Shown here piece after piece: positions 1,134-50,438 of a stretch of 64,000 bases of DNA. Source of the stretch: Cytophagaceae bacterium (GTDB taxonomy: Bacteria > Bacteroidota > Bacteroidia > Cytophagales > Flexibacteraceae); assembly GCA_947458545.1 (NCBI GenBank), contig CANGYH010000001.1:1488001-1552000 (forward strand), read 5' to 3'. The notes beneath the pieces were generated by a model. It did not search any database and had not been told where the DNA came from. It saw nothing but the letters and a program-made list of their open reading frames with translations. Each line of letters starts with the position of its first letter. The stretch's first letter is position 1. The position numbers and the translations under genes were made by a program.

Positions 1134-1709
1134 TTAGGATACCCGCTCCACCACGCGCCCATCCACCAGGCGGTAGACCTGGCCAGTTTCCGGACACAAG
1201 GCCTGCCCGTCGGGCCCGAAGGTCAGCTTGTGCCCATACTCAGACACCCAGCCCGCCTGCCGGGCGGGGTTGCCCATCACCAGGGCAAAGGCCGGCACGT
1301 CTTTGGTCACCACGGCCCCGGCCCCGATGAGCGCAAACGCCCCAATGCTGTGGCCGCACACGATGGTGGCGTTGGCCCCGATGCTGGCCCCCCGGCCCAC
1401 GGGCGTGGCCTTGAACTCGTCGCGGCGGATGATGGCCGAGCGCGGGTTGATCACGTTGGTAAACACGCAGCTCGGGCCCAGAAACACGTCGTCCTCGCAG
1501 GTGACGCCCGTGTAGAGGCTGACGTTATTCTGCACCTTGACGTTGCGCCCCAGCGTAACGCCGGGCGACACGACCACGTTTTGCCCCAGGTTGCACCGCT
1601 CGCCCAAGACGGCCCCGGGCATGATGTGCGAAAAGTGCCAGATTTTGCAACCGTCTCCAATGACGGCGCCCTCGTCAATAACAGCAGTAGGGTGTGCGTA
1701 GTACGACAT
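1134..1709 (-). CDS. Sugar N-acetyltransferase of the WbpD/WlbB left-handed beta-helix family
   Basis: A 191-aa hexapeptide-repeat acyltransferase. The N-terminus (YAHPTAVIDEGAVIGDG, KIWHFSHIMPGA) and the repeats LGQNVVVSPGVTLGRNVKVQNNVSLYTG match the enzymes that acetylate the 3-amino group of UDP-2-acetamido-3-amino-2,3-dideoxy-glucuronate for O-antigen or capsule sugars. Hexapeptide turns cover about residues 5-150, including TIVCGHSIGAFALIGAGAVVTKDV and the MGNPAR motif, followed by a short C-terminal extension. No other genes of that pathway are next to it, so the exact nucleotide sugar is inferred. The -7 box GACCTTTG ends only 5 nt before the ATG, so the mRNA should be leaderless or nearly so. 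A heptad repeat array lies directly upstream. Confidence 0.85.
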   Translation of the reverse strand: MSYYAHPTAVIDEGAVIGDGCKIWHFSHIMPGAVLGERCNLGQNVVVSPGVTLGRNVKVQNNVSLYTGVTCEDDVFLGPSCVFTNVINPRSAIIRRDEFKATPVGRGASIGANATIVCGHSIGAFALIGAGAVVTKDVPAFALVMGNPARQAGWVSEYGHKLTFGPDGQALCPETGQVYRLVDGRVVERVS

Positions 1710-1710
1710 A

Positions 1711-1722
1711 GGGGCAAAGGTC
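1711..1722 (-). promoter_or_regulatory. -7 promoter box of the acetyltransferase gene
   Basis: The minus strand reads GACCTTTGCCCC then T and ATG. The GACCTTTG octamer fits the Bacteroidota -7 consensus TAnnTTTG in its second half and recurs before rimM, pheS and purL at nearly the same distance from the start. Confidence 0.6.
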
Positions 1723-1729
1723 GGGAGAA

Positions 1730-1766
1730 AGTTGAGAGTTGAGAGTTGAAAGTTGAGAGTTGTGGC
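1730..1766. repeat. Heptanucleotide tandem array (GARAGTT)5
   Basis: Five tandem 7-mers GAAAGTT / GAGAGTT run upstream of the promoter of the acetyltransferase gene. The same heptads occur upstream of rimM (49469-49498). Heptad arrays of this kind (short tandemly repeated repetitive sequences) are known best from cyanobacteria. Confidence 0.8.
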
Positions 1767-2102
1767 GCGGGCGGTTGGCCCACCTTTGCTTCCATCCGCA
1801 TTGCTTCCAATGTTCTGTGCAATGGCTTTGCCATTGTCACGTGCTATGGCGAGGCTGTGCCTCGCGTGAAGGCCAAGGCGGCAGAGATGGCAGGATGTTA
1901 GAGGGCCTAGGGGGTGCGGTTTGTAGCGCGGGCAGTAGCCCGCGAGGCCTGCGTATTTACCCCGGGCTAAAGCCAGGGGCTACTGAAAAGTGTCTGCTCT
2001 TTTGGCGACGGCTAAAGCCGAACGCTTTTGATTTCTGATTTTGAGGACGTTACAATAGGTTTTTGTCGGAGATTGTCGGTGGTATTAAAGCCGTGCGGCA
2101 GA

Positions 2103-2127
2103 TTGTAGTGCGGGCTGCCAGCCCGCC
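2103..2127 (+). repeat. GTAG-headed REP-like hairpin
   Basis: TTGTAGTG is followed by GCGGGCTG-CC-AGCCCGC. The GTAG head plus imperfect GC-rich stem is the layout of classical REP sequences. Near-identical units occur at 1921, 45153, 49497, 49637 and 49731, and inverted at 50195. Confidence 0.65.
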
Positions 2128-2288
2128 CTGCGGAAGGTGCCCAACGGCGGAGTATCAGGCCTGAATGCAGATTTTACGATTGCAGCTTTTGCACTGATTT
2201 GCAAGGGTTTACAAGCGGTTTTTGTCGGGGAAATGTCGGTGGGTTTGTCGGGTGTTGTTTCAGTCTGAAGACTCCTGCTGCAAGGGGC

Positions 2289-2336
2289 GTCACAAGTCAT
2301 CGCTCCCCTAATCGGGTCGCCAAAGACTTGCGACAG
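2289..2336 (+). repeat. REP hairpin, long-loop form (copy D)
   Basis: The stem GTC-A-CAAGTC pairs with GACTTG-C-GAC, leaving one A.C mismatch, and is followed by AG. The loop is 28 nt long. The same sequence with two substitutions is at 49917-49964, and short-loop relatives flank the RAYT gene. Confidence 0.75.
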
Positions 2337-2830
2337 GTTAGGCGTTGGGCAAGGTAGGGGCTGGGCTTCTGCCGCTGGGTTGATTGTGCCTTGGGGATGT
2401 TCTTCGCCTGCGGCGCCGCCGTACAACGGCGGAACATAAGCGACGAAAGGCGCAGCCTTGCGTCAGCGGTGTACCCTTGAAGGACGTATGCGGTAGGGAG
2501 GCCGACGGGAGTCGGCCAGCAAGGCATCCTTAGACTGGAGTCTAAGGATAGCGATAGGCATAGTGCCGAAGGCTTGAAGCGTTCGGCTTTAGCCGTCGCC
2601 TTAGCAGTAGCCGCAGGATTTTAACCTGGGGTGAACACGGCAAAGCCGGCCAAGCGTATTGCCTCTCACCCCGTACCTTGGCACCCTCCGCAGGCTGCCA
2701 GGTCTGCCGCCCTGGCCTACACGCGAGGCGCAGCCTCACCAGAGCACGTGACAATGGCACAGCCATTGCCCAGTATATGGGGGCATCGCCCTTGTTAACT
2801 AAAGTGCTTACTTTTTCCGTTCTTTAAGGC

Positions 2831-45152: not shown

Positions 45153-45174
45153 TGTAGCGTGGGCTGTAGCCCGC
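45153..45174 (+). repeat. GTAG-headed REP-like hairpin
   Basis: TGTAGCGTGGGCTG-TAGCCCGC. Same head and stem as the units inside the two composite elements; here it stands alone beside the RAYT locus. Confidence 0.65.
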
Positions 45175-45190
45175 AATCCCTACACCAAGG

Positions 45191-45242
45191 CTGTCGCAAG
45201 CTTTCAGCTTGTGACTCAAATGACGGAAGCTTTCAGCTTCCG
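45191..45242 (-). repeat. REP pair left of the RAYT gene
   Basis: Two hairpins: the outer at 45191-45216 and the inner at 45225-45242 (GGAAGCTTTCAGCTTCCG). On the minus strand the outer one reads AGTCACAAGC-TGAAA-GCTTGCGACAG. Both are exact inverted copies of the pair at 45851-45902. Confidence 0.85.
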
Positions 45243-45256
45243 AAACAAGACCTACT

Positions 45257-45811
45257 CTACCCCATAAAGACCAAGTCCAGTGGCCCTACTATACTTGGAT
45301 TGGCGTAATTTCTTGCAGACGATAAGCTCCAATGGTGTGGCTCTTCTACAAAACCTGCAACTACTGGGTTCTGATGGATATATTCAAGCTTTTGGGCCAT
45401 AAAACTGCCTGTACGCAATTCTATAGGATGGTTATCTTGCTGCCAAAACTGGTATCGTTCATTATAAGGATTTCTTCTTCCTGCACGCTCGAACATCCAC
45501 AGTAGCCACTCCTTTCTAGATTCGCCTGGATGCTCTTGAATAGCCTTTGTAAGCGCCTTGGAGGTGTGGCGCTTCATGTCTCGCATAATACCATCCAAGG
45601 GTTCTTGGCGCGTACTCACAATTAAGTGTATGTGGCTAGGCATAATACACCAAGCATGAACGGTCAAACCCTTATTTGCCTGACAGTATCGGAGACTATC
45701 CAAGACAATCTGACAATACTCAGGTCGAGTAAAAACATCTATCCAGTTTACAACAGCAAAAGAAACGAAATAAGCCAACGAATTGTCGGCAAACTTGTAC
45801 GCCGAGGACAT
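45257..45811 (-). CDS. REP-associated tyrosine transposase (RAYT, Y1_Tnp family)
   Basis: A 184-aa HUH endonuclease. The HUH pair is His60-Ile-His62 in MPSHIHLIVST and the catalytic Tyr is 144 in KLEYIHQNPVVAGF, the RAYT signature. Other family features are ALTKAIQ and WMFERAGRRN, QFWQQDNHPIEL. RAYTs cut single-stranded REP hairpins and are thought to move or multiply them; they are domesticated single-copy genes with no inverted repeats of their own. This gene is less GC-rich than its surroundings. It is enclosed by REP pairs in opposite orientation, 15 bp from its stop and 40 bp from its start. Confidence 0.93.
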   Translation of the reverse strand: MSSAYKFADNSLAYFVSFAVVNWIDVFTRPEYCQIVLDSLRYCQANKGLTVHAWCIMPSHIHLIVSTRQEPLDGIMRDMKRHTSKALTKAIQEHPGESRKEWLLWMFERAGRRNPYNERYQFWQQDNHPIELRTGSFMAQKLEYIHQNPVVAGFVEEPHHWSLSSARNYANPSIVGPLDLVFMG

Positions 45812-45850
45812 ATTTAGAAAAAACGGGTTAAAGAGTGCGATTAAAACATG

Positions 45851-45902
45851 CGGAAGCTGAAAGCTTCCTTCATGTCAGTCACAAGCTGAAAGCTTGCGAC
45901 AG
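45851..45902 (+). repeat. REP pair right of the RAYT gene
   Basis: Inner hairpin CGGAAGCTGAAAGCTTCC (45851-45868) and outer hairpin AGTCACAAGC-TGAAA-GCTTGCGACAG (45877-45902). They mirror the left pair base for base over 18 and 26 nt. Confidence 0.85.
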
Positions 45903-45964
45903 CGGAGGAGTAAAGAAGTAGTCCTAAGGGACCTGCAAAAGTATTTACCCATGCTGTTCACTAG

Positions 45965-46633
45965 TCAGGAGACTTGCTTTATTGTCGTCACAAGACTGGA
46001 GTCTTGCGACAGCGCAAGGGTCCCCCGCTCCACCACCTCCATCCACACCGCTTCTGGGTTGGCCTGGGCCTGCTTATCTCCGGTGACGTGGGTGTAGATG
46101 CCGGGCCAGGTGCGGGCCAGGTAGCCTCCGGCATAGTCGGCCAGAAAGCGGCGGTGGAGGAACTTGTCTATGCCTGCACGCAGGGGGGTGGCCCAGACGG
46201 CCTGGCCTTTGAGGGGCAGCAGGCTGTAGGCGGCCTCCAGGGCATCGGGCGTGAAGCTGGCGTAGAACCGGTCGGCCAGGGTGGGGTCGGCCTGGAGGAG
46301 GGCGCGGTCCAGCAGCATTTCAGCACCGATGTGGGCGGCAAAGCTGGGCCGCAAGAGGGTGATGCCTGCCTCGGCCAGCAGTGCGCGGATGCGAGCTTGC
46401 ATTTGCGCAAAGGCCGGGGCGTTGTGCCAGGCAGCGTCTATGGCGTAATGGCGGGCAATGCCGGCCTCTACCTGGGCCTGCAGCAGGGTGAGCACCTGTG
46501 TATCTGCCTCAAAGCCGGGCCGCAGCCGAAAACCTTCGCCGCGCAGCCTTGCCAAGTCTGGCAGGGCCCCGCCTACCGCAAAGGCCGGGCTGAGGCGGTG
46601 TTCGTCTTGGGCAAAGTGGGCCAGGTAGTTCAT
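45965..46633 (-). CDS. AcpH-like protein (possible acyl carrier protein phosphodiesterase)
   Basis: 222 aa. MNYLAHFAQDEHRLSPAFAVGGALPDLARL resembles the start of AcpH/YajB, a member of the HD-like family that removes phosphopantetheine from ACP (MNFLAHLxLA...GNLLGDF). The rest is helical with HYAIDAAWHNAPAFAQM, FLHRRFLADYAGGYLAR and HIGAEMLLDRALL. Similarity is at the pattern level, so the reaction is uncertain. The C-terminal residues LSQDSSLV are encoded by a REP hairpin (45987-46012), and the stop lies just beyond, so the natural end has been replaced. Confidence 0.6.
   Translation of the reverse strand: MNYLAHFAQDEHRLSPAFAVGGALPDLARLRGEGFRLRPGFEADTQVLTLLQAQVEAGIARHYAIDAAWHNAPAFAQMQARIRALLAEAGITLLRPSFAAHIGAEMLLDRALLQADPTLADRFYASFTPDALEAAYSLLPLKGQAVWATPLRAGIDKFLHRRFLADYAGGYLARTWPGIYTHVTGDKQAQANPEAVWMEVVERGTLALSQDSSLVTTIKQVS
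45987..46012 (+). repeat. REP hairpin inside the 3' end of a gene (copy C)
   Basis: GTCACAAGAC-TGGA-GTCTTGCGACAG. Same stem and A.C mismatch as the RAYT-flanking copies with a different apical pair. It is read through in the AcpH-like frame on the minus strand. Confidence 0.8.
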
Positions 46634-48893: not shown

Positions 48894-49445
48894 TTATACG
48901 GCATCGTCTCCGCCCAGGTACACGTCCAGCAAACCCTCGGGCAGTTGCATCACCAGTCGACGGTTGCCCTTGTCCACCTGAACAAGAAAATCGTCGTGCA
49001 GAGGCACCAAGGCCTCCGTACCACCCACCAGCACGCCGAGCATCGTTTGCTGAGGCAGTTCATAGACCTCGCCCACGGTGCCCACAACGGCCCCGCCCTG
49101 GGTCTGATCAACAACCGTATAGCCGACGATGTCGTGGTAGTAGAACTGGTCGTCGTCTAGCTCGGGCAGGGCCGTCAGAGGCAGGTAAACCTTAGCGCCC
49201 TTCAGCGGCTCGGCCTGCTCTACGGCGGCCAGCCCCTTGAGCTTGGCGATGGCGCGCTCGCCCTGCTGCACCACATTGAAGCCCTCTACGCGGTAAGGCA
49301 CCAGGCCGTGGGGCAGGTTTAGGTACAGCTCGGTGCATTTGGCGTAGGCCTCAGGTTCATCTGCTTCCAGGGCCAGCATAAGTTCGCCCTTCAGGCCATG
49401 TGGCCGCAGCACGTAGCCGAGCTCGAAGCAATCTTCTACCGTCAT
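48894..49445 (-). CDS. rimM: Ribosome maturation factor RimM
   Basis: 183 aa from the ATG at 49445 (MTVEDCFELGYVLRPHGLKGELML). The N-terminal beta-barrel has GYVLRPHGLKGEL and the C-terminal PRC-barrel has FYYHDIVGYTVVDQTQGGAVVGTVGEV and LVPLHDDFLVQVD. RimM helps assemble the 30S head with S19. The usual partner rpsP is not upstream; the composite palindromic element and a heptad array are there instead. The -7 box GACCTTTG ends 5 nt before the ATG. The open frame upstream is non-coding repeat. Confidence 0.95.
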   Translation of the reverse strand: MTVEDCFELGYVLRPHGLKGELMLALEADEPEAYAKCTELYLNLPHGLVPYRVEGFNVVQQGERAIAKLKGLAAVEQAEPLKGAKVYLPLTALPELDDDQFYYHDIVGYTVVDQTQGGAVVGTVGEVYELPQQTMLGVLVGGTEALVPLHDDFLVQVDKGNRRLVMQLPEGLLDVYLGGDDAV

Positions 49446-49458
49446 AGGTGCAAAGGTC
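49446..49458 (-). promoter_or_regulatory. -7 box of rimM, nearly leaderless
   Basis: The minus strand reads GACCTTTG-CACCT-ATG. The sequence from the start codon outward is almost identical to that of the acetyltransferase gene at 1709. Confidence 0.6.
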
Positions 49459-49463
49459 GGGAG

Positions 49464-49498
49464 AAAGTTGAGAGTTGAAAGTTGAGAGTTGAAAGTTG
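49464..49498. repeat. Heptanucleotide tandem array upstream of rimM
   Basis: Five heptads GAAAGTT / GAGAGTT in alternation, the same units as at 1730-1766, between the rimM promoter and the second composite element. Confidence 0.8.
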
Positions 49499-49533
49499 TA
49501 GCTCGGGCTGTAGCCCGCGACGGCCAGCTAATA

Positions 49534-50321
49534 CTGTGCAAGGGCTTTGCCCTTGTCACGTGCTCTTGCGAGGCTGCGCCTCGCGTGTAGGCCAGTGCGG
49601 CAGACCTGGCAGGCTGCGGATGGTGTGGGGTACGGATTGTAGCGCGGGCTGTAGCCCGCGAAGCCCGCGTGCTCACCCCAGGCTAAAGCCAGGGGCTACC
49701 GCTATAGCGACGGCTAAAGCCGAACGCATTTTGTAGTGCGGGCTGCAAGCCCGCCTTGCGGAAGGTGCCCAAGGCGGGGCAATGGGCCCTAAATGCAGAT
49801 TTTTTCGATTGCAACTTCGGTATTGATAATCAATGGTTTGTAAGCGGTTTTTGTCGGGGCCTTGTCGGTGGGTTTGTCGTGTAATGTTTCAGTCTGAAGA
49901 CTGTGCTGCTGTGGGCGTCACAAGTCATCGCTCCCCTGATCGGGTCGCTAAAGACTTGCGACAGGGTGCGGGCGGGAAAGGTATCAGGTAGCCTAGGGCG
50001 GGGGCTGCCTTTGTGCCGTTGCGCCGTGCTTGCGGTAGGGGGATATGCAGGGCTGGAGCCCTGCCAGCGAGGGTTGCGAGGGCTGGAGCCCTCGAACAGC
50101 ATCCCAGAGGATGCCTAAGGCTCAAAGCGTTCGGCTTTAGCCGTCGCCTTAGCAGTAGCCTCTGGCTTTAGCCTGGGGTGAACACGCGGGCCTCGCGGGC
50201 TACAGCCCACGCTACAATCCGTACCCCGACGCCATCCGCCGATTGCCAGGTCTGCCGCCCTGGCCTACACGCGAGGCGCAGCCTCGCCAGAGCACGTGAC
50301 AATGGCTAAGCCATTGCACAG
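49534..50321. repeat. Composite palindromic element, copy 2 (no gene in 49446-50508)
   Basis: About 790 bp. The left arm (49534-49727) carries TGCAAGGGCTTTGCCCTTGT, CACGTGC, GGCTGCGCCTCGCGTG, a GTAG hairpin, CCAGGCTAAAGCCAGGGG and CGACGGCTAAAGCCGAACG. The right arm (50127-50321) is their inverted series. In the middle are a GTAG hairpin (49731), a direct series of TTGTCGG motifs, GTCTGAAGAC, a REP (49917-49964) and two GGGCTGGAGCCCT hairpins. Layout and much of the sequence match copy 1. Confidence 0.78.
49917..49964 (+). repeat. REP hairpin, long-loop form (copy E)
   Basis: Stem GTC-A-CAAGTC / GACTTG-C-GAC followed by AG; the loop differs from copy D in two positions only. Confidence 0.75.
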
Positions 50322-50438
50322 AATACCTGGACTTATGCGACCGGCTTTAGCCTGAGGTGAGCTTCCTTTAGCGTGGAGCCGCCCAGATGCAGCAAATAAG
50401 GTTATAGACAAATTCTATCATCTTATAAAAACTATCAG

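Follow-up and report, generated by a model that had tools for sequence, protein, structure and literature searches.

The locus at 45191-45902 of the window (the whole 64,000-nucleotide stretch of DNA analyzed here) is probably a REPtron built on a REP-associated tyrosine transposase (RAYT) of subclass 2.6, in which a stationary enzyme would nick its own hairpins and spread hairpin doublets in trans. This reading starts from the family and fold of the protein, the layout of the locus, the private stem of each unit, the polarity of the hairpins, and the dispersed doublets of sister families, all of which were observed directly. RAYTs were defined by the inverted REPs that flank them (Nunvar et al. 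2010, PMC2817692). According to PMC8266576, their recognition of REPs and the unit that is moved have been worked out mainly in two proteobacterial groups.

The RAYT gene and its hairpin arms

The gene (45257..45811, minus strand) is an intact ORF of 184 aa with HIH at residues 60-62, WQ at 123-124, and YIHQNP containing Tyr144, so that the catalytic residues proposed from the sequence-only reading (His60/His62 and Tyr144) are in place. An arm made of one outer and one inner hairpin lies on each side. Upstream of the gene, the outer hairpin (45878..45900, minus strand) reads GTC-G-CAAGCT-TTC-AGCTTG-T-GAC, with CT directly before it, and the inner hairpin (45851..45868, minus strand) reads GGAAGCTTTCAGCTTCC(G). 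Downstream, an inverted copy of the outer hairpin occupies 45193..45215 (plus strand) and an inverted copy of the inner hairpin, CGGAAGCTTTCAGCTTCCG, occupies 45224..45242 (plus strand). An inverted-repeat search of the window returned the arms as 62-nt segments (45181-45242 and 45851-45912) with 89% complementarity. Within them, 45191-45216 and 45877-45902 are exact reverse complements (26/26 bases), as are 45225-45242 and 45851-45868 (18/18 bases); the hairpin coordinates and inverted identity claimed earlier are thus correct to the base.

The outer hairpin comprises an upper stem of 6 pairs, a G.T pair, and a lower stem of 3 pairs (GTC/GAC). When its 26 nt were folded as DNA, the sense (minus) strand gave -8.6 and the opposite strand -6.4, and the two strands are therefore not equivalent. 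The outer pattern GTCGCAAG-N2-16-CTTGTGAC matched three times in the window and never in 100 dinucleotide shuffles, which excludes chance, and the inner hairpin had 2 window matches at ≤2 mismatches versus 0.05 expected. GT[AG]G was absent directly 5' of the outer and inner stems on either side, so these hairpins are not canonical GTAG REPs. A separate GTAG-headed palindrome, GTAGCG[CT]GGGCTGTAGCCC, was observed with its variants at 45154, 49498, 49639, and 50215 (-) of the window, and again at L146 535 and L150 7072; the copy at 45154 sits just beyond the downstream arm of the RAYT unit.

The protein scored 100.8 bits against NCBIfam NF047646 (REP-associated tyrosine transposase; cut-off 80) and 28 against Pfam Y1_Tnp (cut-off 23); its score against NF033573 (IS200/IS605 type) was 21 bits, under the cut-off of 55. 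The AlphaFold2 model had a mean pLDDT of 93.2, and the closest solved structure was E. coli TnpA-REP with a REP hairpin (4er8; Foldseek E 1.8e-8), to which VIA-align superposed the model with Z 16.4 and rmsd 2.5 over 143 aligned residues at 19% identity. IS608 and ISDra2 reached Z about 10-12 and aligned only up to about residue 137. The Tyr helix is putatively in cis, like that of the monomeric TnpA-REP. His62, Trp123, Gln124, and Tyr144 were invariant, and His60 nearly so, in an alignment of 43 proteins (the window protein, 37 of the 80 named loci, and five paralogues, with L009 left out). The Y1_Tnp/RAYT assignment made in the sequence-only reading therefore held up in family scores and in fold.

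Subclass 2.6 as described by Quentin et al. 2018 (PMC6006769) consists of Bacteroidetes proteins with the motifs NH[LIV]H, WQ, and YIH[QN]NP, a HuH-Tyr distance of 82, and no GT[AG]G; the flanks are said there to hold "atypical secondary structures" that recur at other genomic sites. The window unit shares with it the WQ and YIH[QN]NP motifs, the HuH-Tyr distance (82, from residue 62 to 144), a length of about 180 aa (184, versus a median of 179), the lack of GT[AG]G, the atypical flanking hairpins, and the Bacteroidetes host. It differs in reading SHIH instead of NH[LIV]H, in which both His and the hydrophobic residue are present and the first residue differs, and in that its exact hairpin is not dispersed. 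The Tyr motif Y[IV]ENQ of IS200/IS605 (subclass 1.1) is absent from the protein, which has YIHQNP. Judged from sequence motifs and the structural model, the protein is a RAYT/TnpA-REP of a known family whose motifs fit subclass 2.6 (Bertels group 5), and the unit appears to be a further example of that published subclass. The earlier remark that most described RAYTs with REPs are proteobacterial is correct for canonical REPs, but PMC6006769 had already described the Bacteroidetes subclass. Of 314 RAYT relatives, 80 were retained; at 50-62% identity, nearly all of these were from Bacteroidota, and the nearest named ones came from Pontibacter and Hymenobacter, which makes a Bacteroidota host most likely. 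Close relatives also occurred in records titled Aggregatibacter kilianii (L078, 53%) and Bifidobacterium breve MAG (L021, 61%), where either transfer or mis-binning may account for them.

Private stems and dispersed doublets in the host genome

The host genome (3.23 Mb, 99.7% complete) contains seven RAYTs, and in six of these the gene stands between an outer-inner doublet and an inverted inner-outer doublet (with a single stem mismatch in the downstream outer hairpin of L011). This recurrence supports the REPtron-like layout suggested for the window. Each of the six units has a private stem: GAGGGCT, AATGGC/GAGGC, CCCGGTC/CAGGTC, AAGCT, AAAGTC/AAGTC, or CTTAGAC/GCCGAC. Both outer and inner hairpins carry T at the apex of the same strand in 15/15 RAYT-associated doublets aligned, and the outer-inner order is constant in such doublets; in the MAFFT alignment used, stems of different families fall in different columns. 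The seventh RAYT, L009 (G000:C9:18257-18661), is flanked by canonical GTAG REPs, namely GTAGGACAGGGCGACAGACCTGTC and, inverted relative to it, a variant that differs by one base, and two recognition types therefore coexist in the genome. Further copies of the L009-type REP were found in L146, L152, and L213, and of the variant in L208. Identity to the window protein is 40-48% for the five paralogues with doublets and 26% for L009, too low for any of them to be a recent copy of its gene.

Doublets of the sister families are dispersed far beyond their genes. Genome-wide counts were 52 copies for F006 (3 flanking their RAYT), 22 for F005 (2 flanking), 14 for F011 (3 flanking), and 8 for FX (L146 298-346, L129 4081-4128, and six other places), whereas the reversed-pattern control gave 0 copies for each of the four. 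All seven FX copies examined have a G.T pair below the upper stem of the outer hairpin, and their inner foot, GGAAGC, is like that of the window. A family-blind scan of 464 kb, with a 400-kb sample taken at hand-chosen spaced positions, returned 38 doublets versus 4 in one shuffle; the window and the loci surrounding RAYTs are likewise non-random samples. Twenty-two of the 38 could be placed in one of the six families (1 being an overlap and 2 the window's own arms) and 16 were left unassigned; F007 and F010 contributed 3 and 1 copies within the scanned 464 kb.

All F006 copies begin sharply at the same 5' boundary, CTGTG; one stem position is paired in 35/37 copies by way of T-A, G-C, or A-T, and the inner stem reaches at least 5 bp in 34/37 copies versus 3/37 in a control stretch. 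The recurring unit is the doublet, not the single hairpin. Half of the copies (26/52) are arranged as 13 inverted pairs separated by 237-928 bp; the outer hairpins face outward in every pair, and 0 pairs have the opposite arrangement. The RAYT unit accounts for one pair; the other 12, two in the window and ten elsewhere, enclose repeat mosaics with recurring F005 and F011 doublets. The first mosaic in the window (1704..2794) contains F006 doublets at 1820-1865 (+) and 2743-2773 (-) and an F011 doublet at 2500-2549 (-); the second (49440..50330) contains F006 doublets at 49539-49584 (+) and 50271-50316 (-) and an F005 doublet at 50047-50094 (-). Mosaics framed in this way by inverted F006 doublets are BIME-like. 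By eye, no common long ORF was found as cargo within the inverted F006 pairs, just repeat-like fragments. A mosaic 3' context was seen in 25/37 F006 copies examined, and recombination could have spread the mosaic-bound copies.

The window's own hairpins and the proposed mechanism

Spread of the window's own family has been slight, amounting to the two arms and three solo doublets with a different stem. The 23-nt core of the outer hairpin occurs twice in the genome at ≤3 mismatches, both times as a window arm. The foot pattern with any stem gave four matches in the genome, and the spacer pattern gave three solo doublets whose stem is unlike the window's and which are the nearest kin of its hairpins. 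One solo, with the same foot type as the window unit, lies at 45963..46015 (minus strand), about 150 bp upstream of the RAYT gene; its outer hairpin is at 45987-46010 with the stem GACTCCAGTC, and its inner hairpin is degenerate. The two others are about 108 kb away, at G000:C1:1641614 and C1:1642519. Because the family comprises only two arms and three solos, the window enzyme has left little visible progeny, and the confinement of the exact hairpin to the flanking arms gives no sign of activity by this enzyme. The difference between the window stem and that of the solos may reflect turnover of the stem code. The sequence-only reading had held that absence of other hairpin copies would refute it; for the outer core there is indeed no third copy at ≤3 mismatches, but the three solos with another stem do exist. 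When relatives were searched, as it had suggested, the foot pattern without mismatches was absent from 58/58.

The solo at C1:1642519 (L134 6500-6720) lies directly next to the C-terminal remains of an F006-type RAYT, whose downstream doublet is still present. The idea that the doublet had split this RAYT by insertion was rejected, as only the C-terminal end is present beside it and tblastn detected no N-terminal part in 14 kb; the remnant is therefore a neighbor of the doublet and no proof of insertion. A weak tblastn match at about 2814-3138 of L134 resembles an ordinary IS200-type transposase.

The identity of the two window arms (26/26 and 18/18 bases) had been taken to indicate recent activity or gene conversion, and a recent copying event or conversion would account for it. 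Across five of the six units (L010 was dropped because its arms differ in length), left and right arms nevertheless differed at 7/212 hairpin positions and 9/45 spacer positions (Fisher p = 0.0003); in the window unit, the spacers differ at 2/8 positions. Arm identity is therefore confined to the hairpins, and a recent duplication of the arm is not supported, as it would have left the spacers identical too. Conversion tracts limited to the hairpins are possible; overall, an origin of the identity by recent copying or conversion is very unlikely. The simplest reading is constraint on the hairpins as substrates of one enzyme.

In the proposed mechanism, the protein is a single-strand HUH/Y1 nuclease whose recognition of its own hairpins is most likely confined to one of the two strands. 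Recognition would draw on the private stem, the T at the 5' side of the apex, an irregular pair or bulge under the upper stem, and the CT at the 5' foot. The window enzyme would bind these features, use Tyr144 to nick at the 5' CT, and transfer or copy the doublet (outer and inner hairpin of the same polarity, about 50 nt) elsewhere in trans, with the rayt gene keeping its place while doublets spread. According to PMC8266576, the E. coli TnpA-REP is guided to the REP by irregularities and loop bases and cleaves at a CT on either the 5' or the 3' side of it; the CT foot and stem irregularity of the window hairpins may be the parallel. Similarity to the E. coli REPtron (4ER8, Corneloup et al. 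2021, PMC8266576) extends to the fold, the HUH and Tyr residues, the inverted flanking hairpins, the stem irregularity, and the CT near the foot, but the window unit is without GTAG, its protein is only 19% identical, and its hairpins come in outer/inner pairs.

Alternatively, the gene and both arms could together be one insertion sequence that moves as a whole, with the arms as its ends. The arms do resemble subterminal hairpin ends, and purL lacks an adjoining RAYT in 10/10 family relatives. However, the neighboring gene acpH is likewise not beside purL in those relatives (0/10 had acpH or RAYT there, within flanks of about 1.5 kb), so the absence of the RAYT does not amount to an empty site, and the earlier proposal to compare presence and absence at orthologous sites yielded none. 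The genome also contains no near-identical second copy of the gene (paralogues 40-48%, L009 26%), the five paralogues have their own hairpins, and doublets away from RAYTs are far more numerous. Transposition as a whole unit is accordingly unlikely. The same low probability attaches to a mainly regulatory role, in which the hairpins would act as terminators or mRNA stabilizers of rayt and its neighbors and be kept identical for that purpose. Their position near both gene ends agrees with such a role, and REPs can terminate transcription or stabilize mRNA (cited in PMC6006769 and PMC8049555), but it leaves unexplained the private stem of each RAYT, the strand polarity of the loops, and the dozens of copies far from any RAYT. 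A regulatory role can coexist with doublet spreading by a stationary enzyme.

Within the stationary-enzyme reading, the form of the mobile unit can be specified tentatively. It is possible, though somewhat less than evenly so, that across this RAYT subclass a hetero-doublet of uniform polarity (an outer hairpin with a weak foot and a similar-tipped inner one) is what moves, resembling a gene-less minimal IS200/IS605 element with left and right ends and not an inverted REPIN, and that the six enzymes use private codes with little cross-talk. As in REPINs, a palindrome doublet seems to be the unit replicating in trans of the RAYT (PMC3116915). REPIN doublets are inverted, however (93% of 430; Bertels and Rainey 2011, PMC3116915), whereas outer and inner hairpins share polarity here. 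IS200/IS605 elements (IS608, ISDra2) have the HUH/Y1 fold in common with the window protein at the Z scores given above, and the two same-strand hairpins may resemble their left and right ends. Unlike these elements, the window unit has YIHQNP in place of Y[IV]ENQ, no near-identical multi-copy transposase, and a gene set between inverted doublets. Neither a same-polarity doublet nor a set of six private codes in one genome was found described in the RAYT literature searched, which covered PMC6006769 in text passages. The genome offers a good natural set for learning how such enzymes recognize their targets: six related enzymes from a Bacteroidetes subclass that has received little study, each encoded next to its own substrate, with copy numbers that range from near zero to 52. 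Swapping proteins and oligonucleotides among them would allow tests of enzyme-hairpin specificity.

Arms of RAYT units in other genomes

The arm arrangement was compared in 111 units, 7 from the host genome and the rest from other loci, after 5 of 116 had been dropped for short or N-containing flanks. The upstream flank was aligned to the reverse-complemented downstream flank, with 2220 mixed pairs as the control. The match between a unit's own arms exceeded the 95% level of the mixed pairs in 82/111 units and the 99% level in 53/111, and 29/111 were at or below the 95% level; the units are not fully independent, because L048 and L103 seem to represent one locus and some genomes contributed more than one of the named loci. 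At least one hairpin was present in 78/82 upstream arms versus 59/410 shuffles, and two or more in 29/82, at a threshold chosen in the analysis.

Loops in the upstream arm were rich in pyrimidines in 53 units and in purines in 8; another 6 units were tied, and 15 had no short-loop hairpin. The sense strand folded better in 40/66 arms and the other strand in 24/66 (p = 0.002), a weak bias. CT was found at the 5' foot in 54/80 arms versus 17/80 on the other strand, 2 of the 82 arms having been dropped beforehand. Given the 8 purine-loop units and the 26/80 feet lacking CT, the loop and foot rules are not strict. A tally of stem irregularities over all arms (G/T 40, -/T 17, T/G 16) includes many chance hairpins and is a hint only. 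Hairpins of the GGCGCAAG type occurred in 5/20 named-relative genomes (20 of the 80 named loci were searched), with 25 copies in the genome of L020, Pontibacter mucosus. A same-order relative on a single 4.9-Mb contig (G045) has 33 matches to the RAYT family.
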